A DNA stretch of 64,000 nt, from contig CANTFK010000283.1 of NCBI GenBank assembly GCA_947646735.1, positions 1-64,000 of the forward strand, in the 5' to 3' direction. The position numbers and the translations under genes were made by a program. Below are positions 7,038 through 59,609 of the stretch, piece by piece (the stretch's first letter is position 1; the number at the start of each line of letters is the position of its first letter). The notes below the pieces were generated by a model that saw only the letters and a program-made list of their open reading frames with translations, did not search any database and was not told where the DNA came from. This DNA is from Peronospora farinosa. Its lineage: Eukaryota; Oomycota; Peronosporomycetes; Peronosporales; Peronosporaceae.

Positions 7038-7262
7038 AATGCCTCTTAAGTACAAAAGTGTCTAGCCGCATCTCTTACAAATAACAAAACAAATTGTTCT
7101 CAAGCTGTTAGGTTTCGTTTGCTTAAGCACTACGACCCCAACTCTAAAATAGTTATTCCTCGCTGGCATGGCTCAGAATTCGGAGGTTCGTCGGTACTAC
7201 CGCGTGCTCGCATTTGACGCACGTTTGATCCGCTGCGCTAAATTGTACTTATCCGTTCCATT
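7038..7262 (+). repeat. PME 3' flank, duplicated at 30679-30902
   Basis: Non-coding sequence after the pseudogene stop is nearly identical to that after the intact PME (shared landmarks AATGCCTCTTAAGTAC at the start and GATCCGCTGCGCTAAATTG near the end). Similarity stops abruptly at about 7262/30902, marking the edge of the duplicated unit. Confidence 0.85.
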
Positions 7263-21287: not shown

Positions 21288-23177
21288 CTATACTAGTCGC
21301 TGCCAATGCGAAACGTGGCGGATAGCTTTCTCGCGTTCCCAAGTACTATCACACTCCGGCAGGCCGTGCCATTTTACTAGCCATTCTATTTGACGGCTGC
21401 GCTGACGACGACTAAGCAACCTTTCCACAATGTGAAGTTCTTTACCGGTATCTGCCTCTAGGATAACCGGTGATGTTTTTGGAATCGGTCGTCCAGCGAA
21501 CTCAGAGGCATTCGGCTTGTATGTAAAGAGTAGGTCGACGTTAAACGATGAGTGCAGTTTCTTCAAATTTCGTGGTAGCTTCAACTTCGCTACATTCGGG
21601 TTGATCATCTTGATTATCTCAAACGGTCCAACTTTTTTGGCCGCGAGCTTTGCTTTCTTTAACCCAATGTGAGCGTTGACTGTCCTTAACGGTAAATTTT
21701 TGGTATCCAGTAGAACTAAGTCACCGACATTAAAGGTGAGGTTTGTTCTTTTAGAGTCGTAGTACTTTTTCTGTCTTTCTTGGGCTTGCTCTAGGTTTTT
21801 TCGTGCCTTACGCACTACGTCTTGACGATCTTTGGCGAACTTTGAAGCAAGCTCTGAGATTGGTTGTGGGCCCAGACCATCGTACTCTTTGTATTCGTGA
21901 GAAATCGAATTTGAAACCTTTCTTCCGGTATCGATCTCAAATGGGGTGAGCTTAGTGGACGGATTCACCGAGGTGGCGTGCGCGTACTCTACAGTACCAA
22001 GTAGCTTGACCCATTTTTCTCCACTGTAGGCTACCAAGCAGCGTAAAGCGTCCTTTAACACCAGGTTTTGGCGTTCTGTTTGTCCATCTGCTTGCGCCCT
22101 ATGAGCGGTCGTCATGCTTAGTTTAACACCCATTATGTTCATTAAAGATTTCCAGAAGTTTGCTGTGAACTTAGGATCCCGATCGCTGATTATTACCTTT
22201 GGCAGTCCATGATGTCGAACTACGGCGTCGAAAAACAACTTTGCGGTGTCTTTCGAATCGGCAGTCGTATACGTTGGTGCATAAATCGGTCTCTTTGACA
22301 ACTTGTCTACGACGACGAAAATAGCATCATACCCTTCCGACACGGGTAGTCCAGTAATGAAGATTATTGACACTACTTCCCAGCGTTCCTCCGGAATGGG
22401 GATAGTAATAATTAATCCTTTCTTTCGCTGGCTGTTTGACTTCCATCGAGCGCATGTTTTACATGTCTCGACGTACTTCTGCACCGTCTCAAGCATATGC
22501 GGCCAGTAGTACCATTGCTTCAACTTCAGGTAAGTTCTGCGAACTCCTGGATGTGCTGCGGTGGCTGCGTCGTGAAACTCATATAAAATCTTCATCTTTA
22601 ATTCCGGCATGTCTGGAATGCATATTTGCTGCATTGCATCATCTTGCTTTAGACATAAGAGTCCTTTGTCAATTATGAACTTGTCATTTGGCTGCTCGGT
22701 TTCCCAGATATTCTTGAAGAAGTTGTCCTTGCGATATCCTTGCTGAATCGCTTTCCGCACTTTTTTGCTGATATGTGCGCGCACAACGTGAAACTCGGCG
22801 TTATGGATTTGCTCCTGAGCGACTCCTATCGGACGACTCTCCTTCCTCAACTCCACATCGTCAAGTAAGAGTTGGGATACATCCAGCGGAATGTACTGAA
22901 GGAGGACAGAGTGCACCATGTGCTTGTCCAAAAGAGTAAAGGGAAGATTACACTCCTCTGTACACTCATGTACAACGTGCGACAGATCTGGAACATGGGA
23001 CGTAGGCACCGTGGGCTCGTTGGAATGCTCGCCAGTCACAGGAGGACGAGATAAAGCGTCGGCCACGACATTTGATTGTCCTTTCACATGATGTAAGACA
23101 AAGTCAAACTGGGAAAAGAACGTCAACATTCGAGCCATCTTGGGAGACACTTGGGATGGTGGAGCATCCACTTGCAC
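21288..23177 (-). pseudogene. Gypsy integrase with chromodomain, long open frame
   Basis: A 629-codon open frame. Residues 29-45 are the RNase H tail (HHVKGQSNVVADALSRP). An H2C2 zinc-binding module uses H202/H209 and C239/C242. The core has the second and third catalytic acids (SDRDPKF at 331, DGQTERQN at 364-371) but reads IIFITGLP where the family has MDFITGLP, so the first catalytic aspartate (about residue 272) is isoleucine and strand transfer should fail. A GPF module follows, and a C-terminal chromodomain (WLVKWHGLPECDSTWE), which in this lineage reads chromatin marks to guide insertion. The open frame has no true start of its own; it is the downstream part of a broken pol. Confidence 0.88.
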
Positions 23178-29499: not shown

Positions 29500-29682
29500 T
29501 CGGAGCAGCCTTTCTGACAACTCTCATCTGGTGATGAATACATCCAGTTTGTACTCAAATAAGCAAAACTCTTACCTTTTATGTGGAGGAACCATGTGCA
29601 GGAATGATCTAAGCTCGATAGCAGCTCACTTTGTGTTTTACTTCGCGTCAATCAAGTCACTTCCACGCGCACACACCAAACA
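29500..29682 (+). promoter_or_regulatory. PME promoter with initiator at 29657-29664
   Basis: Related to the duplicated promoter segments at 5554-5763 and 5819-6028. TCACTTCC at 29657-29664 matches the oomycete initiator pattern (TCAYTYY), lies 19 bp before the ATG and is preserved in all three copies. Expression is inferred, not shown. Confidence 0.55.
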
Positions 29683-30678
29683 ATGCGCATCTTCGCTCTT
29701 CCAGTCATACTTCTTGCCAGTCTCGTAGTGGGCGCCGATGCTGCATGCACCAAGCCTCCAGCCGGAGCAATCATTGTGGATCAATCCGGCGCCCATAGCG
29801 GTTACCGTACCATTAAGGACGCCGTAGGCAAACTGAATGTTGACACGACAGTGCAGCAAACTATCTTCATCTACAAGGGCACGTACCAAGAACAAGTCGT
29901 CATCTCGAAGTTGAAGAGCACACTAGTGCTGCAAGGATACACATGCGATAAGATGTCGTACGATAAGAATGAAGTCACGATCACCCACAAAATGTCGCAG
30001 CAGGACATTACTCCTCACCCGGGTGTGGATTCAAACGATCTTGTCAGTACGCTCAGAATCGGCACCGACAACGTGCAGGTGTACAACCTCAATCTCGCCA
30101 ACACGGCCGATCCAACTCCTCAAAAAGGCCAGGCTCCGGCCCTGAGCGTCGCATGTAAGCAATGCGCTTTCTACGCTTGCAGCATCACTGGACATCAGGA
30201 TACCTTGTTCGCCAACAGGGGTTATCAATTCTATAGTCGGTCGCACGTGGTGGGTACGGTCGACTTCATCTTTGGCAATGCTCGAGCTTGGTTTGAATCG
30301 TGCGACATTGAGTCTGTCGGTCCCGGATATATCACTGCCAACGGCCGAGGCTCCAAAGACGACGAGTCTTTCTTTGTATTGAACAAGGCGCGTGTGTCTA
30401 GCTTATCACCCGGAAAGGTCTACCTCGGTCGCCCTTGGAGAGCGTTCGCACGCGTGGTGTTCCAACAGTGCGATCTTGGCGGAAACATCAACGCGGCCGG
30501 CTGGACCTTAATGAGCAAGGGCATGGCCACGTCCAACGTATTTTTAAAAGAATACAAAGATGCTAATACAACCATCGATGGTCGGGTGTCCTATAGTGGA
30601 CAGTTGGACGGTCCTATCGCTATTAGAGATATTCTTGGTGAGGACTTTCAAACGTTTGTCAACAAGGATTATTTGTAG
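29683..30678 (+). CDS. Pectin methylesterase (pectinesterase, CE8), secreted
   Basis: Removes methyl esters from homogalacturonan of plant cell walls, releasing methanol and exposing pectin to polygalacturonase and lyase; acts outside the cell. 331 codons, no intron. Residues 1-20 form a signal peptide (hydrophobic core ALPVILLASLVVG, exit ADA). The right-handed beta-helix motifs are all present: GTYQE at 66-70, GQAPAL with oxyanion Q150, GHQDTL with Q172 and acid/base D173, GTVDFIFGNA with nucleophile D194, and YLGRPWR with R250 and W252. The length fits a bare catalytic domain without pro-region, as in microbial PMEs. The start is supported by the signal peptide and by the initiator 19 bp upstream. 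The paralogue at 6029-7037 is a pseudogene. The gene appears functional. Confidence 0.95.
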   Translation: MRIFALPVILLASLVVGADAACTKPPAGAIIVDQSGAHSGYRTIKDAVGKLNVDTTVQQTIFIYKGTYQEQVVISKLKSTLVLQGYTCDKMSYDKNEVTITHKMSQQDITPHPGVDSNDLVSTLRIGTDNVQVYNLNLANTADPTPQKGQAPALSVACKQCAFYACSITGHQDTLFANRGYQFYSRSHVVGTVDFIFGNARAWFESCDIESVGPGYITANGRGSKDDESFFVLNKARVSSLSPGKVYLGRPWRAFARVVFQQCDLGGNINAAGWTLMSKGMATSNVFLKEYKDANTTIDGRVSYSGQLDGPIAIRDILGEDFQTFVNKDYL

Positions 30679-33900: not shown

Positions 33901-34217
33901 AGTCATTGTGACTATGATGTCAATGGGTATAAAAGTCAGTATGTACCTGACAACGTCGGTCAATGTATTGACATATAACAGATTGTTCCTCTGCCAGTCA
34001 ATGGCGTGTCAGTATACCTGCCATTTCGCAGTCAATGTATACCCGTCGTTTCGCAGGTCTATGTGTACCCTTCGTTCTGACGGACACAGTAAGCGAAGTC
34101 TGTCGTTTGATATTCGTACCCATCTCTTTACTTCTATATATCTGGTTCAATAAGGTAAATTTATCGGTATAAAGGTGAATGTAAACCCGTCGTTCCGTCA
34201 TGTGGAATATCCGGTTG
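31000..34217. repeat. AT-rich field of dispersed CCGTCG-TTC-CGACGG hairpins
   Basis: About 27 imperfect copies of a short inverted repeat, usually in the context (A/C)ACCCGTCGTTCCGACGG followed by ACATGGTGAGC or TGCGAAGTA, spaced irregularly by about 35-350 bp. Perfect examples lie at 31104-31118 and 32500-32514. Longer shared units (AATATATAGGCA, AAACGCAGCGATTTGCTAGGG) recur at about 70 bp in places, for instance near 33600-33735. No gene is present. A stretch (31993-32478) is repeated at 57406-57884, and 32385-32640 is related to 47915-48180. The array is continued around Gypsy A, the Copia element and Gypsy B. Confidence 0.85.
34213..34217. repeat. Target-site duplication GGTTG (left) of Gypsy A
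   Basis: GGTTG precedes the 5' LTR and is repeated at 42060-42064. Confidence 0.92.
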
Positions 34218-34856
34218 TGTAACGGGGTTACACGACGGTTGTAGCGTCTTTCCGAGAGTTTACGGTTAAACTCTCCTTTGTATTGCATATAATGCATTAT
34301 TATACTTCTCTTTAGAGAGGTATTAAGTATGAGCGTTATAATACGGTATTCGGTAATACCGTATCTTATCGATTGAGATTCGATAAATCACTAACGCTGT
34401 ATTAAGTACATCATACACAGATGTTTAGACGATACGTCGTCCAATAGCAAAGTCTGCATATAATAATTACTATTATAGTAATTAATCTAGTGTAGTGTAC
34501 TTAGAGTAGGACTATTCATAAAATCTTAAAGCATAAATAAAATCAGTTCTCCTTTTGAGTTTAAGATCGCAAGTCGTTCTGACTTGCTCTCTTGTGCACT
34601 TCGTGCGTTGGTTCTCTGAACCCCTAAGCTTCTAGATTCGTCTTGCACTCTGTGCGTTGGTTCTCTGAACCTTAAGCTTATTGCTTGCTGACTAAAAGTC
34701 TCTCCTACTTCCTTAGAAGAGGGTGACTTTAACGTCGTATAATTAGTTCCTTAGAACTAAGTGGCTTTTAGCCTTAACTCTATTTAGTTCTCTAGAACTA
34801 AGAGGCTTCCAGCCGAAAGTCTTCCTCTGGCTAAAGAGCTGTGCAGCTCCGCTACA
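34218..34856 (+). repeat. 5' LTR of Gypsy A
   Basis: 639 bp, TGTAACGGGG...GCTACA. Contains many short perfect hairpins, for example GGTATTCGGTAATACC and AGTTCCTTAGAACT. Differs from the 3' LTR at roughly a dozen positions. Confidence 0.95.
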
Positions 34857-34858
34857 CT

Positions 34859-34873
34859 TGGTAGCACTTGTTG
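34859..34873 (+). promoter_or_regulatory. Gypsy A primer-binding site
   Basis: TGGTAGCACTTGTTG two bases after the LTR; the same site is used by Gypsy B (49859-49873) and by the minus-strand Gypsy (26807-26821). Confidence 0.75.
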
Positions 34874-34916
34874 TCAATCCTACACCTGAGTCTTTAAAGA
34901 CTGACCCTCTGTGAGG

Positions 34917-35917
34917 ATGGAGAATCAAAATCACCTCTCTGAGGCACAACGACTCGCCTTAGATAAACTATCTGCGTTCGTCGGGCCCGATCAAATCGAG
35001 GCCCTTTTGGCCCAAGGCCCCGAGGTTCTAAATGCTCGTCTTGAGGCCTTTATGCGTTATGAGGCAACGCTCCTCGGGCAGGTCCATGACCAGGCAGCGT
35101 CAGCTGCGCCTACACAGTACATTCCGGTACCTGTGCCCGATGCAGAGCCAAAGGCTCGCCCACTTGTTTTAACGTAAAGAACTTCGAGGGGAAGGAGGGA
35201 GAAAATCTTCTCCTCTGGATCCGAGAAGTTGAAATGGCAATGGATGCCGCCATGCTTGTATCCGATAAGCAACGAGTTGGCTTGGCCATTTCGAAGCTCG
35301 GTGGAAGAGCTAGAGAGTGGGCTCTAACAAGCAATGTCTCTGTAAATGCTGCATTTCCCACATGGGAAATGCTTAAAAAGCAATTAACTTGCGTGTTTGC
35401 ACCGCCTTAACAGGCTTATCGTGTGCGCTCACGCTTCCTAGCTACCCGACAGGGTAAGAAAGAATTGTCGGACTATGTCCAAGAGTTGAGAACTCTCATT
35501 GCTGCTATGCAGCAGGACCCACTGGCAGAGGAAGTCCGAGTAACCATTTTTATGGAAGGACTTCGCACTGGGGTCGCCAGGACGGAAGTTTTCCGTGTCC
35601 AGCCTTCGACTTTTGAGGAGGCAGTAAGCATAGCGTTTAACGCTGAATTTAATTTTAAATCTGCTCGATATGGTCTGCCCTGGTATCAATCAAATACCTC
35701 TAATAGGGCGGAACCCATGGATCTCAGCCATGCTGAAGAAGCTGAGCTTCAAGCTGCTGAGCAGCAAGGTAACATCCGTAGATGTTACATGTGCGGAAGC
35801 ACTAGGCATCTCCGCCCTAGCTGTCCGTTGCGAAAGCAACGTTCAAATCGGCAAAGCCGAAACCCTGCTCCTAGCCAAAAGGCGAGCACCGCAGGGGAAA
35901 ACGTCAACTCCCAGTAG
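34917..35917 (+). pseudogene. Gypsy A gag, with a frameshift and a private stop
   Basis: The frame from ATG 34917 reads 86 codons (to 35177) and stops just after ARPLVLT. The next frame continues directly as [16 protein letters not shown], so a -1 shift is needed near 35164-35175; the same shift exists in Gypsy B. A TAA at 35409-35411 (AAT in B) adds a lesion private to A. From 35423 the frame carries the retrotransposon gag domain and a zinc knuckle [14 protein letters not shown] near 35783-35824 (C-x2-C-x4-H-x4-C). It ends at TAG 35915-35917 and overlaps pol, which is open in the -1 frame from 35875. Confidence 0.88.
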
Positions 35918-38367
35918 GCGCGGGGCGCCCTACTGGGAAAGAACTAAGTTCTGTTGAATCTTTAGGAGGTAAAGGTAAACAGGGCTTAGCCCCAGGTGGT
36001 TCTGTGGATGCTCCCATAGAACAAAATTACAAGCCAGGCTTGTTGGTTGTGTCGGCAACCGTTAAGGGTTTTGAGAAACCATGGTCAATTTTAATTGACT
36101 CAGGGGCGTCAGGTAATTATGTCCGACGTCGTTCCCTTGAAGGGAGTCAGCTGTATGCTGAGGCGCTAGAAGCGCAAGAGGGTGACAGTATAACCGTGCG
36201 TCTCGCGACCGGTGTACGTGTCACCGTTCCTAAAGTTCCGTTGAACTTAGGTGTGAAGTTCTTAGACTTCAATAGCGTTGAACGCTGTCTTGTCCTAGAT
36301 TTGGACTCGAGATATGATCTCATTCTCGGTATGGCCTGGCTGGAACGCCATGAGCCATGGATCGATTGGAGATCCAAAACTTTAGGCGCAACGCGCAATG
36401 TTCCTAGCGAAGCTTTGGAGAGTCATGAACCCACCTTCGCTAGAAAACAAAAGTGCTATTGGCGCGAGCCATTAACTGATTCAGTTAGTGTGCTGGACAT
36501 TGGAGTGTCTGAGTTGATAAACTCCGATGTTAACAATAATAGTGTCGAGCAGAGCTCAATGACACTTAGTGGAACGGCACGTACTCCGTTGAGTGATACT
36601 CAAAGTGATATTGAGACACTGGATGTCGGTAATGACATCGGCTCTCGTATAGAGCAAGTGAAGGTCGATGACCTTGTTAGTAATATTGGCTGTAAATGCG
36701 ATTTACTGGATGTCGGTAATGACATCGGCTCTCGTATAGAGCAAGTGAAGGTCGATGACCTTGTTAGTGAAGTCACTGGTACTAGTGACCCACTGGGTGT
36801 CGGTAATGACATCGGCCCTCGCATAGGGCAGGTAAACGACAAGGGGTCTGTTGACCTTGGGGACGATAACATCCCAAGTACTTTGAAGAGTACGGTCTCG
36901 TCAAGGAGACGGCAGCGTCGCCAGATGGCGGCTGCGAGACGCAAAGCGTCTGTTTTATCGCATAGTAATGTCAATGACCAGTTGTACACCCTGGTCGACG
37001 GAGTGACAGGTGATGTAGATGGTGAGGTTGACCTTGAGGCCCTCCCATCATTAAATGCTCTTTTAGAGCTAGACGAAATGTCTGTGGATGAATTTCATCA
37101 GGCCTTGAAGGCAGGTGCTCTATCCGATATGGTGGTCATTCGACCTAACCTCGAGATGAACTCATCCTCGCTTGTCGATGAGACAGTCCTTGAAGATACA
37201 AAAGCGGCACTGAGTGCACGTAGTGGGGCATCTATTCTGAAGAACCCTTCAGATCCCTACTATCCTTTGGTAAAGGAATTCCAGGACGTGGTGTGTCACG
37301 ATCCACCGTCGGTTCTACCACCTGATAGGGGTGTACGTCATGAAATTGACTTGGTTCCCGGAACCAAATACTGTGTAACACGGCAGTGGCCTTTACCCAA
37401 AGAACAGTGTGACGTCATTGACGAGTTCTTTCGTGCAAAGCACGCGGCGGGCATGGTGCGTGAGAGTAAATCTCCGCACTCGACACCCACTTTCTGTGTT
37501 AAGAAACCGAATGGTAAATGGCGTATCGTTCATGCTTATAATAAGCTTAATGCGGCCACTATACCTGCACAGACACCGATACCTAGAAAGGATGTTCTTC
37601 AGAACAATATGGTCGGTTGTACCATGTACAGTGCGCTCGACTTAGTCGATGGTTATTACCAATTGCTCATGCGAGCTAGTGATATTCCGCTTACTGCTGT
37701 TAGTACTCCGAGCGGTATGCTCTGGGAGTGGTTAGTGATGCCCCAGGGGCTATCTAATGCTCCGGCTACGTTTAACCGTTTGGTGACGCAATTGTTTCGA
37801 CCCCATCGAAGTTATGCACAGACGTATTTTGATGACATTTTTGTCCATAGCCGAGCTGAACATGGGCGGTCAGATATTGAGAACCATATTGTTCATTTAC
37901 GAGCAGTGCTCGAGTGCATGCGCACTAATAAATTATATGCTAATGCATCTAAGTGCATCTTCGGGGCCGAAGAAATTCCCTTTCTAGGGTGCTTCATTGG
38001 GAAGCGGGGCCTACGAGCGGATCCCGCCAAGGTCAAAGCCATAGTCGATTGGCCTGTTCCACAGTCTCAGAAAGACTTGCGTAAATGGCTTGGCCTTGCC
38101 AATTACTTACACAAGTACAGCGAGAATTACGCTGATATGGCTCGGCCGTTATCCAATCTCCTTAAAAAGGATGTGGAATGGTGTTGGCATGCCGAACACG
38201 AAGATGCTTTTCAAGCAGTGAAGGCAAGCCTTCTTCATGCTACTATTTTGGCTTTGCCAGACCCTGATCGACCGTTTAGCGTCGTCTGTGACGCATCGGA
38301 TTTTGCCATTGGCAGTGCTCTGTTACAATCAGATGATGAAGGCCGTGAGCGTGTAGTCGCTTTTTAA
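35875..38367 (+). pseudogene. Gypsy A pol, first part: protease, RT, start of RNase H
   Basis: Open from 35875, overlapping gag by 43 bp in the -1 frame, to a TAA at 38365-38367. It has the aspartic protease active site [10 protein letters not shown] near 36091-36120 and the protease end [10 protein letters not shown]; a linker with two and a half 29-residue repeats (36619-36840); an acidic spacer; RT with the active-site loop [12 protein letters not shown] near 37821-37856; and the RNase H start [15 protein letters not shown]. Codons before 36004 contain no ATG near the overlap, so expression as a gag-pol fusion by frameshifting is likely. The terminal TAA replaces what is normally a glutamine or glutamate in this family, and the frame continues beyond it. 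Confidence 0.9.
36619..36840 (+). repeat. 87-bp coding repeats in the pol linker (2.5 units)
   Basis: Units at 36619-36705 and 36706-36792 and a partial third encode [20 protein letters not shown] plus nine variable residues. Gypsy B has six full units at the same place. Confidence 0.9.
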
Positions 38368-40146
38368 TCTCGCCAGCTGAAAGCTGCAGAAAAGAACTAT
38401 CCAGTTCATGACAAAGAGCTACTTGCGATGAAGTATGCCCTGGTCAAATTCAGAGTTCATCTGCTGGGCTCAAAGCCTTTTGTGATCTATACCGATCATG
38501 CGTCGTTACGCACTGCGACTCAGTCGCCGCATCTCTCGCTGAGAATGGCCAGATGGCTGTCATTCTTTGCCGAACATAATTTCGAGGTGAAATATAAGCC
38601 GGGCAAGCAAAATGCTTTGGCTGATGCGTTGTCACGCAGACCTGACTATGAGCTTGCTCATGTGACGACGTTGTCGTCTTTGATCATTGATCTCATTCGT
38701 ACGGCATATGCCAAAGATGATCACTGTATAGCGTTGCTACATGCTCTTGGCAGTGAGGAGTTTAAAGACTCGGACATTAAATTGTCGGCACGATTGCGTG
38801 CAAGCCTCCATCGATATTCTATCGATGAGGGGCTGTTGTACTATCGTACAGATGTAGCGGATCCTCCGCGTATTGTAGTTCCTCATGACGAGGACCTGAA
38901 GTATCGTATCCTCTATGAGGTACATGACACCGCCATCGGTGGTCATTTGGGTCGTGAAAAGACCTATGGGGCAGTATGCCAAAGTTATTGGTGGCCCAAA
39001 TTATATAAATGGGTGAGCACATATGTGCGTACGTGTGGAACGCGTCAACGGGTGAAAACCTCGCCCCATTCGGCAGCGCCGCTGGATAGTTTGCCTATTC
39101 CCACTGGGTGCTGGGAGTCCATTAGTATGGACTTTGTATTTGGCCTACCGAAAGATTCGCATGGCAATACAGGTATTGTGGTCTTTGTTGACCGTTTGAG
39201 CAAGATGGCTCACTTAGCGGCTGTGCCAGATTCGATCGATGGTGTGGGTACAGCGGAGCTGTTTATCGATCGGGTGTTTCGCCAACATGGCTTGCCAGTG
39301 GCAATTGTTTCTGATCGTGATCCTCGTTTTACGAGTAAATTTTGGAAGTCCGTCTTCCAGGTGCTGGGCACCCGTTTGGACATGTCCACAGCGGATCATC
39401 CGCAGACCGATGGTCAAACCGAACGCGTAAATCGCGTTGTTGAAGATATCCTACGCAGCGTTTGTGCTGAAACACCTAAGCGATGGAGCGCTATGCTCCC
39501 TGTAGTTGAGTTTGCTCTCAATAATTCCGTGCACGCCTCCACCGGCTACACTCCGTTCTATGTCAATGGTCTCACACACCCACGCGTTCCGTTAACGCTA
39601 CCACCGAGTGGTTCAGGGCTTGGTGGGGGAGAGGTTGCCGATCGGCTTGCTGATGTCAGCCCTAATACTGTTAAGAAACAGGTAAATGCGTTTCTCGCAA
39701 CGCGACTAAATGTCTTACGACATGTGCAAGATGCAATGGCTGATAGTCAAGATAAACAAAAGGAATATGCAGATGCGAAAGGCAGAGGTTGTATTACTTG
39801 TTATGAGGTCGGAGACCAAGTATTACTTAATGCTAAAAATCTACCTACCAATGTAGTATCCGCTGTCTTTAAGACGAAGTTGCGCCCGCGCTTTATCGGA
39901 CCCTTTAAGGTCATTGCCAAGAAATGCACAGCGTATACGCTTAACTTGCCGCGCAAATTGCGTACACATCCTGTGTTCTATGTAGCCATGCTGAAACCTT
40001 ATCGGGATCCGTCCCAAGTAAACGTTAAGGCGCTCGCGCCGAGCCCATTGGCATTGTCGCGGGACGAAGCATCTGCGCCAACATGTCAAGCTGACCCTGC
40101 ATTCGGGTCCGACTCTCTTCCAGGGATGCAAGCCGAAGGTTCATAG
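38368..40146 (+). pseudogene. Gypsy A pol, second part: RNase H end and integrase
   Basis: Same frame as 35875-38367, separated from it only by the TAA. It continues RNase H (SRQLKAAEKNYPVHDKELL, then YTDHASL) and the tail KPGKQNALADALSRR. Integrase follows, with catalytic acids in MDFVFGLP, SDRDPRFTSKFW and DGQTERVNR, then a GPF module (RPRFIGPFKVI). In the H2C2 zinc module the CxxC reads CGTR near 39031-39042, whereas Gypsy B has CEMC, so one zinc ligand is lost in A. It ends at TAG 40144-40146, which also occurs in B, and the chromodomain follows in frame. Confidence 0.9.
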
Positions 40147-41308
40147 TCTGCCTCTCCTCACGAAGGGACCGCACCTCCTGAACAAGCTCGGCATGAGCTT
40201 GTGCCGATACACCGACCTCCTCCTCCTTTGCTCGATGCGCAGGGGAACCTGCAGTTCCATGTGGAGCGTATACTGCAGAAGCGTCGCCGCCATGGTCAAA
40301 ACCAGTATCTGGTGAAATGGCGGGGTTATCCCGAATCATGGAATTCATGGGAGTTTGAGACTCCCCTTCGGCAGGACTGCCCGTACGCCGTGGACGTTTT
40401 TGAGCGTCGTGCGCAGAGTCCGCCTGTTGGCGCTGACGCTTCTCACCAGTAATGGCGAGGGTAGGCGGGTTAGCGGCCTCGGACTGTCGTGAACTCGCGG
40501 CTACAGGTGTAGCCGAAACATTGAGCTGCTGGGTAGCAGACGCATAATGCGCTCGTTGGGATTTAAATTTTCCCCGGGACTTCAATTTAGCGTAATCGTA
40601 ACGCATCTTCCGCTCAAGTCGGACATCTGCCACATCGGCACTTGCCCGTAGGGCCCACATGCTGCTTAAACGTCGCGCATAATGCGCCCAGCGGCTGAAA
40701 GCCGTGTCTTCTTCGTCCTCGGTTTCCCCCGCGAACAGAAGGATGGGAACACCCTTTATGGGAGGAACTGGCGCACCGCGCACTTGCCTGTTAAGGCGTG
40801 CCAAGTACTGGCTTTGTGTAGTGATGTGGGGTTCCAGATATCGTTGTCGAAGTGCCGTGCGCGTGGCAACATCCTCAGGTGAAATGGCCTCAGGCCCAAT
40901 GGTCCAACCAGAAAGGGAATGCCCAGATGCTTCCTTTAGGCGTTCTTCCACCGTAGGTGGCTTGAACCTGTACTGTCGGTGGTCCTGCAGTCTCGTCATA
41001 TTCTTCGTCCGGCGATTGGCGCCTTCCTCTTGGTCGATGGTCCGCTGTTGCTGCTCGTCGAGTGAATTGGTAACCGTTACCGTTGACGATACGTCAGGCG
41101 GGTCACGCAATGCTGTTAGCGCATCTGCTGCACCACGTTCAGGGAACAGATTCGGTGCATGACGAGTGTCATCTTCACCCGTGAGGGTGGCTAAAGGGGA
41201 CCCATCAGGTCCCACAAAGACGGTGTCACTTTCGTAATCAACCGCTTCGCCAAGGTCATCTTCAATGAGGTCCCGAAGAGTCTGTGACTCACTGCCGGGA
41301 GGCGTCAT
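40025..41308 (-). CDS. Antisense ORF of Gypsy A (427 codons)
   Basis: An uninterrupted minus-strand frame from ATG 41308 to TAA 40025, between the 3' LTR and the integrase end. It overlaps the chromodomain and the integrase tail, but two thirds of it (40453-41308) faces no sense gene. The N-terminus is acidic and disordered-looking; the centre is the best conserved part (SRWAHYARRLSSMWALRASA at about residues 205-224). Basic patches EKRQRQQ and QKRPRR (about 289-308) could be a nuclear signal. A C-terminal coiled coil (LVQEVRSLREERQTMNLRL, about 375-393) would favour oligomers. I recognise no family. The same ORF is intact in Gypsy B (55373-56656), with about 8 replacement and 19 silent differences in the non-overlapping part by hand count. 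Role unknown; no promoter was identified. Confidence 0.75.
   Translation of the reverse strand: MTPPGSESQTLRDLIEDDLGEAVDYESDTVFVGPDGSPLATLTGEDDTRHAPNLFPERGAADALTALRDPPDVSSTVTVTNSLDEQQQRTIDQEEGANRRTKNMTRLQDHRQYRFKPPTVEERLKEASGHSLSGWTIGPEAISPEDVATRTALRQRYLEPHITTQSQYLARLNRQVRGAPVPPIKGVPILLFAGETEDEEDTAFSRWAHYARRLSSMWALRASADVADVRLERKMRYDYAKLKSRGKFKSQRAHYASATQQLNVSATPVAASSRQSEAANPPTLAITGEKRQRQQADSAHDAQKRPRRTGSPAEGESQTPMNSMIRDNPAISPDTGFDHGGDASAVYAPHGTAGSPAHRAKEEEVGVSAQAHAELVQEVRSLREERQTMNLRLASLEESRTRMQGQLDMLAQMLRPATMPMGSARAP
40147..40452 (+). pseudogene. Gypsy A chromodomain, cut off from integrase by TAG
   Basis: In frame with the integrase, after the TAG at 40144-40146. It encodes a proline-rich hinge and a chromodomain: FHVERILQKRRRHGQNQYLV followed by KWRGYPESWNSWE, with the aromatic cage positions Y and W present. 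In this lineage the chromodomain directs integration to marked chromatin. The frame ends at TAA 40450-40452. The opposite strand of the whole segment is also coding (see 40025-41308). Confidence 0.85.
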
Positions 41309-41406
41309 GTTATGTGCCGTGAACAACCCGTGAGGTTTTAAACGTTCGCTAAAGCACTACCTCTACGAGGAAAAATGTCGAGTGACATTCTATGGGAACG
41401 TCAGTC

Positions 41407-41418
41407 TGGTGGGGGAGG
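41407..41418 (+). promoter_or_regulatory. Polypurine tract of Gypsy A
   Basis: GGTGGGGGAGGG directly before the 3' LTR, the expected plus-strand primer. Identical in Gypsy B before 56768. Confidence 0.8.
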
Positions 41419-42059
41419 GTGTAACGGGGTTACACGACGGTTGTAGCATCTTTCCGAGATTTTACGGTTAAACTCTCCTTTGTATTGCATATAATGCATT
41501 ATTATACTTCTCTTTAGAGAGGTATTAAGTATGAGCGTTATAATACGGTATTCGGTAATACCGTATCTTATCGATTGAGATTCGATAAATCACTAACGCT
41601 GTATTAAGTACATCATACACAGATGTTTAGACGATACGTCGTCCAATAGCGAAGTCTGCATATAATAATTACTATTATAGTAATTAATCTAGTGTAGTGT
41701 ACTTAGAGTAGGACTATTCATAAAATCTTAAAGCATAAATAAAATCAGTTCTCCTTTTGAGTTTAAGATCGCAAGTCGTTCTGACTTGCTCTCTTGTGCA
41801 CTTCGTGCGTTGGTTCTCTGAACCTCTAAGCTTCTAGATTCGTCTTGAACTCTGTGCGTTGGTTCTCTGAACCTTAAGCATATTGCTTGATTGATTAAAA
41901 GTCTCTCCTACTTCCTTAGAACAGGGTGACTTTAACGTCGAATACTTAGTTCCTTAGAACTAAGTGGCTTTTAGCCTTAACTCTATTTAGTTCTCTAGAA
42001 CTAAGAGGCTTCCAGCCGAAAGTCTTCCTCTGGCTAAAGAGCTGTGCAGCTCCGCTACA
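41419..42059 (+). repeat. 3' LTR of Gypsy A
   Basis: 641 bp partner of 34218-34856, followed by the GGTTG target-site duplication at 42060-42064. Confidence 0.95.
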
Positions 42060-42423
42060 GGTTGACTCAGGTAAATGAATACCTGAGTCTAATGCATTAC
42101 ATTCGAGTCGATTAGCTTATTGGAATTGGATCCACTTGAACCGGATCACTACGCTTGCTTTTGCCACTTTGTAGTGTATTAGTTGAGCACGGAGCCCATG
42201 TTTGAAAAACGAAGTGAAAGTATGTGTCTCATCTAATCTTCTAAAAAAGCTATGTTTGATACTGCAAGATCTAAGGATTCATATGAACATTTATGTGTGC
42301 CATCGTTTTGTATATTAGTGTTATAGATAGAAGCACGATATATGGACACTCTGTTATGGAATCTGCACATGTAATGATCAATACAAAAGGGCAAACTCTG
42401 CCAATGCAAAATGAGCCAAAAAT
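42060..42423. repeat. Repeat-field spacer between Gypsy A and Copia
   Basis: Begins with the GGTTG duplication and continues the repeat-field motif GGTTGACTCAGGTAA, which is split by the Gypsy A insertion. No gene. It ends with AAAAT (42419-42423), the left target-site duplication of the Copia element. Confidence 0.7.
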
Positions 42424-49217: not shown

Positions 49218-49856
49218 TGTAACGGGGTTACACGACGGTTGTAACGTCTTTCCGAGAGTTTACGCTTAAACTCTCCTTTGTATTGCATATAATGCATTAT
49301 TATACTTCTCGTTAGAGAGGTATTAAGTATGAGCGTTATAATACGGTATTCGGTAATACCGTATCTTACCGATTAGGATTCGATAAATCGATAACGCTCC
49401 ATTAAGTACATCATACACAGATGTTAAGACGATACGTCGTTCAATAGCAAAGTCTGCATATAATAATTACTATTATAGTAATTAATCTAGTGTAGTGTAC
49501 TTAAAGTAGGACTATTCATAAAATCTTAAAGCATAAATAAAATCAGTTCTCCTTTTGAGTTTAAGATCGCAAGTCGTTCTGACTTGCTCTCTTGTGCACT
49601 TCGTGCTTTGGTTCTCTGAACCCCTAAGCTTCTAGATTCGTCTTGCACTCTGTGCGTTGGTTCTCTGAACCTTAAGCATATTGCTTGCTGACTAAAAGTC
49701 TCTCCTACTTCCTTAGAAGAGGGTGACTTTAAAGTCGTATAATTAGTTCCTTAGAACTAAGTGGCTTTTAGCCTTAACTCTATTTAGTTCTCTCGAACTA
49801 AGAGGCTTCCAGCCGAAAGTCTTCCTCTGGCTCAAGAGCTGTGCAGCTCCGCTACA
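49218..49856 (+). repeat. 5' LTR of Gypsy B
   Basis: 639 bp. Shares element-specific variants with its own 3' LTR (CTCGTTAG, CTCTCGAAC) but TCGTATAATT near its end with the 5' LTR of Gypsy A. Confidence 0.95.
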
Positions 49857-49916
49857 CTTGGTAGCACTTGTTGTCAATCCTACACCTGAGTCTTTAAAGA
49901 CTGACCTTCTGTGAGG

Positions 49917-50917
49917 ATGGAGAATCAAAATCACCTCTCTGAGGCACAACGACTCGCCTTAGATAAACTATCTGCGTTCGTCGGGCCTGATCAAATCGAG
50001 GCCCTTTTGGCCCAAGGCCCCGAGGTTCTAAATGCTCGTCTTGAGGCCTTTATGCGTTATGAGGCAACGCTCCTCGGGCAGGTCCATGACCAGGCAGCGT
50101 CAGCTGCGCCTACACAGTACATTCCGGTACCTGTGCCCGATGCAGAGCCAAAGGCTCGCCCACTTGTTTTAACGTAAAGGCCTTCGAGGGGAAGGAGGGA
50201 GAGAACCTTCTCCTCTGGATCCGAGAAGTTGAAATGGCAATGGATGCCGCCATGCTTGCATCCGATAAGCAACGAGTTGGCTTGGCCATTTCTAAGCTCG
50301 GTGGAAGAGCTAGAGAGTGGGCTCTAACGAGCGGTGTCTCTGTAAATGCTGCATTTCCCACATGGGAGATGCTTAAAAAGCAATTAACTTGTGTGTTTGC
50401 ACCGCCTAATCAGGCTTATCGTGTGCGCTCACGCTTCCTAGCTACCCGACAGGGTAAGAAAGAATTGTCGGACTATGTTCAAGAGTTGAGAACTCTCATT
50501 GCTGCTATGCAGCAGGACCCACTGGCAGAGGAAGTCCGAGTAACCATTTTTATGGAGGGACTTCGCACTGGGGTCGCCAGGACGGAAGTTTTCCGTGTCC
50601 AGCCTTCGACTTTTGAGGAGGCAGTAAGCGTAGCATTTAACGCTGAATTCAATTTTAAATCTGCTCGATATGGTCTGCCCTGGTATCAATCAAATACCTC
50701 TAATAGGGCGGAACCCATGGATCTCAGCCATGCTGAAGAAGCTGAGCTTCAAGCTGCTGAGCAGCAAGGTAGCATCCGTAGATGTTACATGTGCGGAAGC
50801 ACTAGGCATCTCCGCCCTAGCTGTCCGTTGCGAAAGCAACGTTCAAATCGGCAAAGCCGAAGCCCTGCTCCTAGCCAAAAGGCGAGCACCGCAGGGGAAA
50901 ATGTCGACTCCCAGTAG
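49917..50917 (+). pseudogene. Gypsy B gag, frameshifted
   Basis: The frame from ATG 49917 ends at 50177 exactly as in Gypsy A. The continuation, in the -1 frame, is open through the retrotransposon gag domain to TAG 50915-50917 without the private stop of A. Capsid region near 50234-50640; zinc knuckle [14 protein letters not shown] near 50783-50824. The single shift near 50164-50175 is thus the only lesion in gag of this copy. Confidence 0.88.
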
Positions 50918-53715
50918 GCGCGGGGCGCCCTACTGGGAAAGAACTAAGTTCTGTTGGATCTTTAGGAGGTAAAGGTAAACAGGGCTTAGCCCCAGGTGGT
51001 TCTGTGGATGCTCCCATAGAACAAAATTACAAGCCAGGCTTGTTGGTTGTGTCGGCAACCGTTAAGGGTTTTGAGAAACCATGGTCAATTTTAATTGACT
51101 CAGGGGCGTCAGGGAATTATGTCCGACGTCGCTCCCTTGAGGGGAGTCAGCTGTATGCTGAGGCGCTGGAAGCGCAAGAGGGTGACAGTATAACCGTACG
51201 TCTCGCGACTGGTGTACGTGTCACCGTTCCTAAAGTTCCGTTGAACTTAGGTGTGAAGTTCTTAGACTTCAATAGCGTTGAACGCTGTCTTGTCCTAGAT
51301 TTGGACTCGAGATATGATCTCATTCTCGGTATGGCCTGGCTGGAACGCCATGATCCATGGATCGATTGGAGATCCAAAACTTTAGGCGCAACGCGCAATG
51401 TTCCTAGCGAAGCTTTGGAGAGTCATGAACCCACCTTCGCTAGAAAACAAAAGTGCTATTGACGCGAGCCATTAACTGATTCAGTTAGTGTGCTGGACAT
51501 TGGAGTGTCTGAGTTGATAAACTCCGATGTTAACAATAATAGTGTCGAGCAGAGCTCAATGACACTTAGTGGAACGGCACGTACTCCGTTGAGTGATACT
51601 CAAAGTGATATTGAGACACTGGATGTCGGTAATGACATCGGCTCTCGTATAGAGCAAGTGAAGGTCGATGACCTTGTTAGAAATATTGGCTGTAAATGCG
51701 ATTTACTGGATGTCGGTAATGACATCGGCTCTCGTATAGAGCAAGTGAAGGTCGATGACCTTGTTAGTGAAGTCACTGGTACTAGTGACCCACTGGATGT
51801 CGGTAATGACATCGGCTCTCGTATAGAGCAAGTTAAGGTCAATGACCTTGTTAGTGATATTGGCTGTAAATGCGATTCACTGGATGTCGATAATGACATC
51901 GGCTCTCGTATAGAGCAAGTTAAGGTCGATGACCTTGTTAGTGATATTGGCTGGAAATGCGATTCACTGGATGTCGGTAATGACATCGGCTCTCGTATAG
52001 AGCGAGTGAAGGTCAATGACCTTGTTAGTGAAGTCACTGGTACTAGTGACCCACTGGGTGTCGGTAATGACATCGGCTCTCGTATAGAGCGAGTGAAGGT
52101 CAATGACCTTGTTAGTGAAGTCACTGGTACTAGTGACCCATTGGGTGTCGGTAATGACATCGGCCCTTACATAGGGCAGGTAAACGACAAGGGGTCTGTT
52201 GACCTTGGGGACGATAACATCCCAAGTACTTTGAAGAGTACGGTCTCGTCAAGGAGACGGCAGCGTCGCCAGATGGCGGCTGCGAGACGCAAAGCGTCTG
52301 TTTTATCGCATAGTAATGTCAATGACCAGTTGTACACCCTGGTCGACGGAGTGACAGGTGATGTAGATGGTGAGGTTGACCTTGAGGCCCTCCCATCATT
52401 AAATGCTCTTTTAGAGCTAGACGAAATGTCTGTGGATGAATTTCATCAGGCCTTGAAGGCAGGTGCTCTGTCCGATATGGTGGTCATTCGACCTAACCTC
52501 GAGCTGAACTCATCCTCGCTTGTCGATGAGACAGTCCTTGAAGATACAAAAGCGGCACTGAGTGCACGTAGTGGGGCATCTATTCTAAAGGACCCTTCAG
52601 ATCCCTACTATCCTTTGGTAAAAGAATTCCAGGACGTGGTGTGTCACGATCCACCGTCGGTTCTACCACCTGATAGGGGCGTACGTCATGAAATTGACTT
52701 GGTTCCCGGAACCAAATACTGTGTAACACGGCAGTGGCCTTTACCCAAAGAACAGTGTGACGTCATTGACGAGTTCTTTCGTGCAAAGCACGCGGCGGGC
52801 ATGATGCGTGAAAGTAAATCTCCGCACTCGACACCCACTTTCTGTGTTAAGAAACCAAATGGAAAATGGCGTATTGTTCATGCTTATAATAAGCTCAATG
52901 CGGCCACTATACCTGCACAGACACCGATACCTAGAAAGGATGTTCTTCAGAACAATATGGTCGGTTGTACCATGTACAGTGCGCTCGACTTAGTCGATGG
53001 TTATTACCAATTGCTCATGCGAGCTAGGGATATTCCGCTTACTGCTGTTAGTACTCCGAGCGGTATGCTCTGGGAGTGGTTAGTGATGCCCCAAGGGCTA
53101 TCTAATGCTCCGGCTACGTTTAACCGTTTGGTGACGCAATTGTTTCGACCCCATCGAAGTTATGCACAGACGTATTTTGATGACATTTTTGTCCATAGCC
53201 GAGCTGAACATGGGCGGTCAGATATTGAGAACCATATTGTTCATTTACGAGCAGTGCTCGAGTGCATGCGCACTAATAAATTATATGCTAATGCATCTAA
53301 GTGCATCTTCGGGGCCGAAGAAATTCCCTTTCTAGGGTGCTTCATTGGGAAGCGGGGCCTACGAGCGGATCCCGCCAAAGTCAAAGCCATAGTCGATTGG
53401 CCTGTTCCACAATCTCAGAAGGACTTGCGTAAATGGCTTGGCCTTGCCAATTACTTACACAAGTATAGCGAAAATTACGCTGATATGGCTCGGCCGTTAT
53501 CCAATCTCCTTAAAAAGGATGTGGAATGGTGTTGGCATGCCGAACACGAAGATGCTTTTAAAGCAGTGAAGGCAAGCCTTCTTCATGCTACTATTTTGGC
53601 TTTGCCAGACCCTGACCGACCGTTTAGCGTCGTCTGTGACGCATCGGATTTTGCCATTGGCAGTGCTCTGTTACAATCAGATGATGAAGGCCGTGAGCGT
53701 GTAGTCGCTTTTTAA
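50875..53715 (+). pseudogene. Gypsy B pol, first part: protease, repeats, RT, RNase H start
   Basis: Same layout as in Gypsy A. Protease [10 protein letters not shown] near 51091-51120. A private TGA at 51460-51462 (TGG in A) cuts it after the protease. It reopens in frame with the repeat linker (51619-52190), RT with [12 protein letters not shown] near 53169-53204 and RNase H, and stops at TAA 53713-53715, the same codon as in A. Confidence 0.9.
51619..52190 (+). repeat. 87-bp coding repeats in the pol linker (6.5 units)
   Basis: Six full units of 29 codons and a partial seventh. All begin L(D/G)V(G/D)NDIGSRIE(Q/R)VKV and end alternately with IGCKCD-type or [12 protein letters not shown] tails. 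They keep the reading frame and sit between protease and RT, as in Gypsy A, which has only two full units. Confidence 0.92.
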
Positions 53716-55494
53716 TCTCGCCAGCTGAAAGCTGCAGAAAAGAACTATCCAGTTCATGACAAAGAGCTACTTGCGATGAAGTATGCCCTGGTCAAATTCA
53801 GAGTTCATCTGCTGGGCTCAAAGCCTTTTGTGATCTATACCGATCATGCGTCGTTACGCACTGCGACTCAGTCGCCGCATCTCTCGCTGAGAATGGCCAG
53901 ATGGCTGTCATTCTTTGCCGAACATAATTTCGAGGTGAAATATAAGCCGGGCAAGCAAAATGCTTTGGCTGATGCGTTGTCACGCAGACCTGATTATGAG
54001 CTTGCTCATGTGAAGATGTTGTCGTCTTATATCATCGATCTCATTCGTACGGCGTATGCTAAAGATGATCACTGTATAGCGTTGCTACATGCTATTGGCA
54101 GTGAGGAGTTTAAAGACTCGGACATTAAATTGTCGGCACGATTGCGTGCAAGCCTCCATCGATATTCTATCGATGAGGGGCTGTTGTACTATCGTACAGA
54201 TGTAGCGGATCCTCCGCGTATTGTAGTTCCTCATGACGAGGACCTGAAGCATCGTATCCTCTATGAGGTACATGACACCGCCATCGGTGGTCATTTGGGT
54301 CGTGAAAAGACCTATGGGGCAGTATGCCAAAGTTATTGGTGGCCCAAATTATATAAATGGGTGAGCACATATGTGCGTACGTGTGAAATGTGTCAGCGGG
54401 TGAAACCCTCGCCCCATTCGGCAGCGTCGCTGGATAGTTTGCCTATTCCCACTGGGTGCTGGGAGTCCATTAGTATGGACTTTGTATTTGGCCTACCGAG
54501 AGATTCGCATGGCAATACAGGTATTGTGGTCTTTGTTGACCGTTTGAGCAAGATGGCTCACTTAGCGGCTGTGCCAGATTCGATCGATGGTGTGAGTACA
54601 GCGGAGCTGTTTATCGATCGGGTGTTTCGCCAACATGGCTTGCCAGTGGCAATTGTTTCTGATCGTGATCCTCGTTTTACGAGTAAATTTTGGAAGTCCG
54701 TCTTCCAGGTGCTGGGCACCCGTTTGGACATGTCCACAGCGGATCATCCACAGACCGATGGTCAAACCGAACGCGTAAATCGCGTTGTTGAAGATATTCT
54801 CCGCAGCGTTTGTGCTGAAACACCTAAGCGATGGAGCTCTATGCTCCCTGTAGTTGAGTTTGCTCTCAATAATTCCGTGCACGCCTCCACCGGCTACACT
54901 CCGTTCTATGTCAATGGTCTCACACACCCACGCGTTCCGTTAACGCTACCACCGAGTGGTTCAGGGCTTGGTGGGGGAGAGGTTGCCGATCGGCTTGCTG
55001 ATGTCAGCCCTAATACTGTTAAGAAACAGGTAAATGCGTTTCTCGCAACGCGACTAAATGTCTTACGACATGTGCAAGATGCAATGGCTGATAGTCAAGA
55101 TAAACAAAAGGAATATGCAGATGCGAAAGGCAGAGGTTGTATTACTTGTTATGAGGTCGGAGACCAAGTATTACTTAATGCTAAAAATCTACCTACCAAT
55201 GTAGTATCCGCTGTCTTTAAGACGAAGTTGCGCCCGCGCTTTATCGGACCCTTTAAGGTCATTGCCAAGAAATGCACAGCGTATACGCTTAACTTGCCGC
55301 GCAAATTGCGTACACATCCTGTGTTCTATGTCGCCATGCTAAAACCTTATCGGGATCCGTCCCAAGTAAACGTTAAGGCGCTCGCGCCGAGCCCATTGGC
55401 ATTGTCGCGGGACGAAGCATCTGCACCAACAAGTCAAGCTGACCCTGCATTCGGGTCCGACTCTCTTCCAGGGATGCAAGCCGAAGGTTCATAG
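53716..55494 (+). pseudogene. Gypsy B pol, second part: RNase H end and integrase
   Basis: In frame with the first part beyond the TAA. It has the RNase H end, the H2C2 zinc module with an intact CEMC pair near 54385-54396 (lost in Gypsy A), the integrase catalytic acids (MDFVFGLP, SDRDPRFTSKFW, DGQTERVNR) and the GPF module. Ends at TAG 55492-55494 as in A. Confidence 0.9.
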
Positions 55495-56656
55495 TCTGCC
55501 TCTCCTCACGAAGGGTCCGCACCTCCTGAACAAGCTCGGCATGAGCTTGTTCCGATACACCGACCTCCTCCTCCTTTGCTCGATGCGCAGGGGAACCTGC
55601 AGTTCCATGTGGAGCGTCTACTGCAGAAGCGTCGCCGCCATGGTCAAAACCAGTATCTGGTGAAATGGCGGGGTTATCCCGAATCATGGAATTCATGGGA
55701 GTTTGAGACTCCCCTTCGGCAGGACTGCCCGTGCGCCGTGGACGTTTTTGAGCGTCGTGCGCAGGGTCTGCCTGTTGGCGCTGACGCTTCTCACCAGTAA
55801 TGGCGAGGGTAGGCGGGTTAGCGGCCTCGGGCTGTCGTGAACTCGCGGCTACAGGTGTAGCCGAAACATTGAGCTGCTGGGTAGCAGACGCATAATGCGC
55901 TCGTTGGGATTTAAATTTCCCTCGGGCCTTCAATTTAGCGTAATCATAACGCATCTTCCGCTCAAGTCGGATATCTGCCACATCGGCGCTTGCCCGTAGG
56001 GCCCACATGCTGCTTAAACGTCGCGCATAATGCGCCCAGCGGCTGAAAGCCGTGTCTTCTTCGTCCTCGGTTTCCCCCGCGAACAGAAGGATGGGAACAC
56101 CCTTCATCGGAGGAACTGGCGCACCGCGCACTTGCCTATTAAGGCGTGCCAAGTATTGGCTTTGAGTAGTGATATGGGGCTCCAGATATCGTTGTCGAAG
56201 TGCCGTGCGTGTGGCAACATCCTCAGGTGAAATGGCCTCAGGCCCAATGGTCCAACCAGGAAGGGAATGCCCAGATGCTTCCTTTAGACGTTCTTCCACC
56301 GTAGGTGGCTTGAACCTGTACTGTCGGTGGTCCTGCAGCCGCGTCATGTTCTTCGTTCGGCGATTGGCGCCTTCCTCTTGGTCGATGGACCGCTGTTGCT
56401 GCTCGTCGAGTGGATTGGTAACCGTTACCGTTGATGATACGTCAGGCGGGTCACGTAACGCTGTTAGCGCATCTGCTGCACCACGTTCAGGGAACGGATT
56501 CGGTGCATGACGAGTGTCATCTTCACCCGTGAGGGTGGCTAAAGGGGACCCATCAGGTCCCACAAAGACGGTGTCACTTTCGTAATCAACCGCTTCGCCA
56601 AGGTCATCTTCAATGAGGTCCCGAAGAGTCTGTGACTCACTGCCGGGAGGCGTCAT
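55373..56656 (-). CDS. Antisense ORF of Gypsy B (427 codons)
   Basis: Counterpart of 40025-41308, same length, ATG at 56656, TAA at 55373, no stop or frameshift. About 14 residues differ from the A copy over the whole frame, half of them exchanges such as S/P, I/M, V/I and A/S. The central conserved block, the basic patches and the C-terminal coiled coil are kept. Sense gag-pol of both elements has accumulated several stops over a similar divergence while this frame has none, which argues that it is a real gene of the element. Function unknown. Confidence 0.75.
   Translation of the reverse strand: MTPPGSESQTLRDLIEDDLGEAVDYESDTVFVGPDGSPLATLTGEDDTRHAPNPFPERGAADALTALRDPPDVSSTVTVTNPLDEQQQRSIDQEEGANRRTKNMTRLQDHRQYRFKPPTVEERLKEASGHSLPGWTIGPEAISPEDVATRTALRQRYLEPHITTQSQYLARLNRQVRGAPVPPMKGVPILLFAGETEDEEDTAFSRWAHYARRLSSMWALRASADVADIRLERKMRYDYAKLKARGKFKSQRAHYASATQQLNVSATPVAASSRQPEAANPPTLAITGEKRQRQQADPAHDAQKRPRRTGSPAEGESQTPMNSMIRDNPAISPDTGFDHGGDASAVDAPHGTAGSPAHRAKEEEVGVSEQAHAELVQEVRTLREERQTMNLRLASLEESRTRMQGQLDLLVQMLRPATMPMGSARAP
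55495..55800 (+). pseudogene. Gypsy B chromodomain
   Basis: In frame after the TAG at 55492-55494: hinge, then FHVERLLQKRRRHGQNQYLV and KWRGYPESWNSWE. Same arrangement as Gypsy A 40147-40452; opposite strand coding. Confidence 0.85.
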
Positions 56657-56767
56657 GTTATGTGCCGTGAACAACCCGTGAGGTTTTAAACGTTCGCTAA
56701 AGCACTACCTCTACGAGGAAAAATATCGAGTGACATTTTATGGGAACGTCAGTCTGGTGGGGGAGGG

Positions 56768-57405
56768 TGTAACGGGGTTACACGACGGTTGTAACGTCTT
56801 TCCGAGAGTTTACGCTTAAACTCTCCTTTGTATTGCATATAATGCATTATTATACTTCTCGTTAGAGAGGTATTAAGTATGAGCGTTAAGATACGGTATT
56901 CGGTAATACCGTATCTTACCGATTGAGATTCGATAAATCACTAACGCTGTATTAAGTACATCATACACAGATGTTTAGACGATACGTCGTTCAATAGCAA
57001 AGTCTGCATATAATAATTACTATTATAGTAATTAATCTAGTGTAGTGTACTTAAAGTAGGACTATTCATAAAATCTTAAAGCATAAATAAAATCAGTTCT
57101 CCTTTTGAGTTTAAGATCGCAAGTCGTTCTGACTTGCTCTCTTGTGCACTTCGTGCGTTGGTTCTCTGAACCCTAAGCTTCTAGCTTGCTCTTGCACTCT
57201 GTGCGTTGGTTCTCTGAACCTTAAGCTTATTGCTTGCTGACTAAGAGTCCCTCCTACTTCCTTAGAAGAGGGTAACTTTAACGTCGAATACTTAGTTCCT
57301 TAGAACTAAGTGGCTTTTAGCCTTAACTCTATTTAGTTCTCTCGAACTAAGAGGCTTCCAGCCGAAAGTCTTCCTCTGGCTAAAGAGCTGTGCAGCTCCG
57401 CTACA
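56768..57405 (+). repeat. 3' LTR of Gypsy B
   Basis: 638 bp partner of 49218-49856; the AAAGA duplication follows at 57406-57410. Confidence 0.95.
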
Positions 57406-57925: not shown

Positions 57926-57986
57926 CTTTTATTTGCGTGAAACACAACAAGCGACAGAAACAGTATACTCATTAAACATCACTTAC

Positions 57987-59570: not shown

Positions 59571-59609
59571 AAACATGCAACCACGGCGGCGGCGCGTTAT
59601 AAACAGACG

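Follow-up and report, generated by a model that had tools for sequence, protein, structure and literature searches.

Is a long open frame on the antisense strand of a retrotransposon a gene? Such frames are easily written off as chance, and the question arises in a 64,000-nucleotide stretch of the oomycete Peronospora farinosa (contig CANTFK010000283.1, positions 1 to 64,000; hereafter the window). Two Ty3/Gypsy elements in the window, Gypsy A and Gypsy B, each have a 427-codon antisense open reading frame (hereafter the aORF) opposite in strand to gag–pol and adjoining the 3′ long terminal repeat (LTR); both frames, with their ATG codons, lie where the initial annotation of this DNA had placed them (Table 1). 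A and B are separate insertions, judging by their distinct target duplications, and alignment bears out the claim that neither an indel nor a stop distinguishes their two frames. The frame was also said to face no sense gene over two thirds of its length: pol ends at the stop codon at 40450-40452, leaving 856 bases of the aORF outside pol and 428 overlapping it. The family supplies both a neutral control (private changes) and a positive one (integrase). On this evidence the aORF is almost certainly a real coding gene under selection, and we put the probability that it is an accessory protein gene that helps its element to transpose at roughly 60%.

We aligned 71 copies from the same genome, namely A, B, the 60 best-scoring matches and nine more; because the 60 were chosen by score, intact copies are over-represented. 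Elicitins, which are oomycete proteins, have 22 matches in this genome and were matched in 0 of 14 control genomes, as would befit an oomycete. The 62 copies that extend far enough into integrase formed the internal comparison set. Changes private to one copy served as the neutral control, integrase as the positive control, and shared changes as those passed on among copies. In codons 1–285, which have no sense gene opposite, an earlier hand count of 19 silent and 8 replacement differences between A and B proved exact. Across the 71 copies, private changes in these codons comprise 272 replacement, 24 stop and 105 silent changes; changes found in two or three copies comprise 103, 3 and 61, and those in at least four copies 37, 0 and 76. 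The ratio of replacement plus stop to silent changes is 2.82 among private changes, close to the 3:1 neutral expectation assumed previously, versus 0.49 among changes shared by at least four copies (p = 4e-15). On the 62-copy set the private and shared ratios are 2.58 and 0.53 for codons 1–285, and 2.48 and 0.56 for integrase (replacement/stop/silent: private, 372/22/159; two or three copies, 132/12/97; at least four copies, 42/0/75). The gene is selected through transposition: purifying selection is seen in the changes that were passed on and not in those confined to single copies, and it is about as strict as that on the element's own integrase.

Codon position gives the same picture. Changes on inner branches of a tree built from the frame fall 48/39/164 on first, second and third positions of codons 1–285 (71 copies; p = 6e-26). 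On an integrase-built tree (62 copies) the counts are 48/29/142, and integrase itself gives 85/64/196 (p = 1e-19). No third-position excess was found on inner branches in the 108-base flank (21/11/9 on the frame tree, 19/9/9 on the integrase tree). Private changes in codons 1–285 are spread 147/131/123, and the excess is likewise absent from private changes in the 13 copies that have at least two stops (69/54/51) and in stop-free copies (28/34/19). For pairs of copies with at least 90% of columns readable and up to 10% distance, the pooled ratio of nonsynonymous to synonymous differences (pN/pS) is 0.31–0.39 in codons 1–285 and 0.36–0.43 in integrase, where it rises to 0.71 in the 167 most distant pairs. 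The other frames over codons 1–285 have pN/pS of 1.36–2.47, except the sense frame that shares its silent columns with the aORF (0.40–0.52), and in four of the five the ratio of replacement to silent changes (N/S) is higher in shared than in private changes. The best-kept part of the protein is residues 121–160, where the variants found in at least three copies number 20 silent and 2 replacement. The proposal of a conserved antisense gene thus draws support from the 71 copies, the integrase control, and the tests of frame, of private against shared changes and of inherited stops.

These results bear directly on the suggestion that the frame is a by-product, kept open by composition, the sense gene on the other strand or non-coding signals. 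Composition does permit open frames, reaching 344 codons (mean 130) in 1000 dinucleotide shuffles versus 433 codons in the given stretch, and we therefore rest more weight on selection than on open length; codons 286–351 also behave as a by-product would. Codons 1–285, however, have no opposing sense gene and show codon-phased selection as in integrase, and the absence of a third-position excess among private changes is contrary to a mutation bias. A by-product is extremely improbable.

Frequent stops in other copies had been named in advance as evidence against a gene. Stops do occur, in codons 1–285 of 24 of the 71 copies (47 are stop-free there and 54 in codons 286–427), but they look private or recurrent, as in integrase. 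Within the 62-copy set there are 1.19 stops per 1000 codons in codons 1–285 and 1.50 in integrase. The stops present in several copies (codons 86, 165 and 207) are ungrouped, scattered on the trees, and look recurrent, and no stop inherited by a group of copies was apparent in codons 1–285 on the trees of the 71 copies. Frameshifts are under-counted because alignment relative to A hides inserted bases; two copies, L076 and L077, have six and seven TGA codons in the protein search versus zero and one stops in the alignment. The ATG is retained in 65 of 71 copies and the stop codon (TAA or TAG) in all 71, and the whole frame is open at 30 of the 70 loci besides A. The most economical interpretation is that copies without an intact aORF mostly left no descendants.

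Grouped stops (one at aORF codon 387 and five in integrase) occur only in a trio of neighbouring copies on contig C5 that resemble local duplicates. Their aORFs lie about 3.3 kb apart, and the three (L048, L056 and L059) have one aORF stop and one integrase stop in common, with four more shared by two of them; they probably arose when part of the element was duplicated locally in tandem.

The distribution of stops also speaks to a role in trans, in which the antisense protein or its RNA would limit the expression or copy number of the element as a self-made brake. The antisense position near the 3′ LTR would suit such a regulator, and antisense products reportedly regulate some retroelements (HTLV-1 HBZ and Ty1 antisense RNAs). 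Selection among copies, however, would not be expected to remove those that have lost their brake, which makes a purely trans-acting one less likely: stops were not seen to be inherited among copies, a sign that the carrier copy benefits. A brake acting as RNA alone is at odds with selection that is codon-phased. We consider a brake unlikely.

The earlier statement that the protein matches no known family held in Pfam, NCBIfam and PDB sequences. Pfam profiles gave nothing usable (best E values of 0.14–0.27, on the coiled coil described below), nor did NCBIfam (E = 0.54); PDB searches by profile and by sequence gave no match at E ≤ 1, Foldseek with the low-confidence model of the protein reached E = 1.4 at best, and scans of viral and prokaryote contigs revealed no relative. 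Lack of relation to retroelement proteins known in Pfam would fit a captured fragment of a host gene, kept by selection for some function related to the host, for instance escape from silencing. The genome itself argues otherwise. Within it, the aORF protein as query found 101 matches (651 candidates, 98 of them scored) and a piece of a divergent copy 151 (511 candidates, 150 scored); those listed for the latter look like members of the same family. The listed matches are at least 62% identical; one fetched low match (L083, contig C243) is a decayed family copy, 93% alike in DNA; and no single-copy host paralogue was seen among the candidates scored in either search. Host capture is, in our view, very unlikely. 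Six later-found loci and the unfetched matches are excluded from all counts. All 40 best integrase matches have aORF sequence with them, either complete or in part: 37 have an aORF match listed nearby (some partial), two (L079 and L080) align along the aORF with gaps, and one (L078) has a 515-base deletion in it.

AlphaFold predicts a helix at residues 369–414, a predicted coiled coil, with block means of the predicted local distance difference test (pLDDT) of 71–89 over residues 371–410, and this stretch faces pol. Over the whole overlap, N/S in the sense frame drops from 2.61 in private changes to 0.85 in shared ones (p = 0.002); the antisense values are 3.41 and 2.77 (p = 0.69). Opposite the chromodomain, shared changes per opportunity number 0.078 when silent in the sense frame versus 0.012–0.014 when they alter it, regardless of their antisense effect, and a test for antisense selection on codons 286–351 found none (p = 1.0). 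Opposite the linker that precedes the chromodomain (40028-40257), changes altering both proteins occur at 0.034 versus 0.065 for those that spare the antisense protein (Fisher p = 0.004), and the sense frame is also selected (p = 0.006). The predicted coiled-coil stretch is under antisense selection on this post hoc comparison, for which chromodomain and linker were split after the predicted helix had been seen; the p values are uncorrected for multiple tests.

By eye, the protein has an acidic N-terminus and a basic centre, and further helices are predicted. Together with the C-terminal coiled coil, these features suggest an oligomeric protein that may bind nucleic acid or chromatin, perhaps in the nucleus; nucleic-acid binding is a tentative proposal. 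Of the features claimed earlier, the coiled coil stands, as predicted by AlphaFold and in a stretch under antisense selection; the C-terminal basic patch (residues 290–308) lies opposite the chromodomain, where antisense selection was not seen, and is weak evidence. We infer that the protein acts in cis and would probably aid transposition of the copy that encodes it.

A candidate start site lies nearby. We scored a 17-base pattern that we take to be the oomycete core promoter of initiator and flanking promoter region (Inr-FPR). The sole single-mismatch match in the window begins 77 bases upstream of the Gypsy A ATG, on the minus strand (41385-41369), and 111 bases separate this ATG from the 3′ LTR. 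By window frequencies that include the A and B sites, the chance of a match in the flank is 0.0007 with one mismatch and 0.007 with two; it is the position of this promoter-like match, not its existence, that is notable. A minus-strand aORF transcript would probably start between the 3′ LTR and the ATG. Elsewhere in the window, a pectin-methylesterase-like gene recognized by eye at 29683 has a two-mismatch match to the pattern 41–57 bases upstream of its ATG (29626-29683), and stretches of this gene recur at 6159-7253.

Several observations weigh against a selected accessory gene, or against parts of it. With all 71 copies included, stops in codons 1–285 rise to 1.58 per 1000 codons. The sense frame sharing the silent columns also drops, from an N/S of 2.61 in private to 0.76 in shared changes, and has several stops in A. 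The depth of the alignment is that of one family in one genome, its lowest DNA identity to A being 84%. Integrase shows the same private/shared pattern from which action in cis is deduced. In the AlphaFold model, made from a two-sequence alignment, 322 of 427 residues have pLDDT below 50. Scoring of the promoter-like site followed its discovery by eye; shuffling yields 0.48 one-mismatch matches per window, with at least one in 36 of 100 shuffled windows. Among 69 copies readable at the site, 21 have one mismatch, the majority (42) two and six three or four, and at 0.29 shared variants per base the site is not specially conserved relative to neighbouring bases (0.25) or the LTR (0.18). A fuller scenario, to which we give somewhat less than even odds, is that an oomycete family of chromodomain Gypsy elements, apart from plants, evolved an accessory gene on the antisense strand that has a core promoter of its own. 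The coiled coil would have been overprinted on the pol linker, in DNA thus selected in both strands, and the protein would be needed in cis for transposition.

The elements themselves have the pol domain order protease, reverse transcriptase (RT), RNase H, integrase, SH3-like domain and chromodomain (Pfam matches include rve, SH3_Tf2-1 and Chromo). Integrase followed by a chromodomain in pol is the arrangement of chromoviruses among Ty3/Gypsy elements, and in A and B the chromodomain sits behind a stop codon. This stop, which ends at 40146 in A numbering, is a TAG common to A (40144-40146) and B (55492-55494); in the remaining 69 of the 71 aligned copies this codon is not a stop, and A and B perhaps inherited the TAG via transposition. 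Beyond it the frame continues through the chromodomain (Pfam Chromo, E = 3.7e-14) to its terminal stop, which is found in 62 of 62 copies. Of the lesions claimed for sense gag–pol, those covered here stand: A has the shorter gag of the two elements, and each has a split pol. Between protease and RT, pol contains an 87-base tandem repeat whose number of units is not the same in A (36505-36852) and B (51505-52200). Beyond Gypsy B, three long frames at 57933-61007, two without a Pfam match and the middle one with a zinc-knuckle-like stretch by eye, are perhaps another mobile element.

Table 1 Features of Gypsy A and Gypsy B in the window
Feature	Position	Strand	Remarks
Gypsy A	34218-42059	+	LTR to LTR; target duplication GGTTG at 34213-34217 and 42060-42064
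Gypsy A 5′ LTR	34218-34856	+
Gypsy A pol part 1: protease, RT, start of RNase H	36004-38367	+	Open frame and Pfam
Gypsy A pol part 2: end of RNase H, integrase, SH3-like domain	38428-40146	+	Open frame and Pfam
Gypsy A pol chromodomain stretch	40147-40452	+	Pfam match 40255-40410
Gypsy A aORF, 427 codons	40025-41308	-	ATG at 41308, stop at 40027-40025
aORF codons 1–285	40454-41308	-	No sense gene opposite; purifying selection resembling integrase
aORF codons 286–351	40256-40453	-	Opposite mostly pol chromodomain; own selection not seen
aORF codons 369–414, predicted coiled coil	40067-40204	-	Within stretch 40028-40257, opposite pol linker preceding chromodomain
Inr-FPR-like core promoter match, Gypsy A	41369-41385	-	One mismatch
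Polypurine-rich tract adjoining Gypsy A 3′ LTR	41408-41419	+	Read by eye
Gypsy A 3′ LTR	41420-42059	+	98.1% like 5′ LTR
Gypsy B	49218-57405	+	LTR to LTR; LTRs 96.6% alike; target duplication AAAGA
Gypsy B aORF, 427 codons	55373-56656	-	ATG at 56656; protein 97% identical to that of A
Inr-FPR-like match, Gypsy B	56717-56733	-	Two mismatches

Accessory genes on the antisense strand are already known from LTR elements, namely plant Tat elements and deltaretroviruses. The nearest parallel is gene23 of Grande, a plant Ty3/Gypsy element of the Tat lineage, which is antisense between pol and the 3′ LTR, as in Gypsy A and B, and reportedly encodes a nuclear protein with its own promoter. The likeness is one of layout. 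Plant Tat elements lack the C-terminal chromodomain that the oomycete element has, and in Gypsy A the region between pol and the LTR is only about 970 bases long, with 428 bases of the gene overlapping pol. HTLV-1 HBZ and HIV-1 ASP are retroviral antisense genes near the 3′ LTR, and HBZ ends in a coiled coil, as the aORF protein is predicted to do; the promoter-like site of the aORF, in contrast, lies between the LTR and the ATG and not within the LTR. An origin from an HBZ-type retroviral gene was set aside, as a Pfam search at E ≤ 1 matched no bZIP domain to the aORF. Chromoviruses share the pol order through integrase, SH3-like domain and chromodomain, and are not known to have an antisense accessory gene; a further chromodomain Gypsy element in the window (21288-23177, minus strand) ends about 40 bases from its presumed LTR, leaving no room for one.

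Compared with these systems, a selected antisense accessory gene in an oomycete chromodomain Gypsy element would be a new variant. The comparison of private with shared changes can be applied to such frames in any genome with many copies. If our reading is true, Ty3/Gypsy elements gained antisense accessory genes on more than one occasion.
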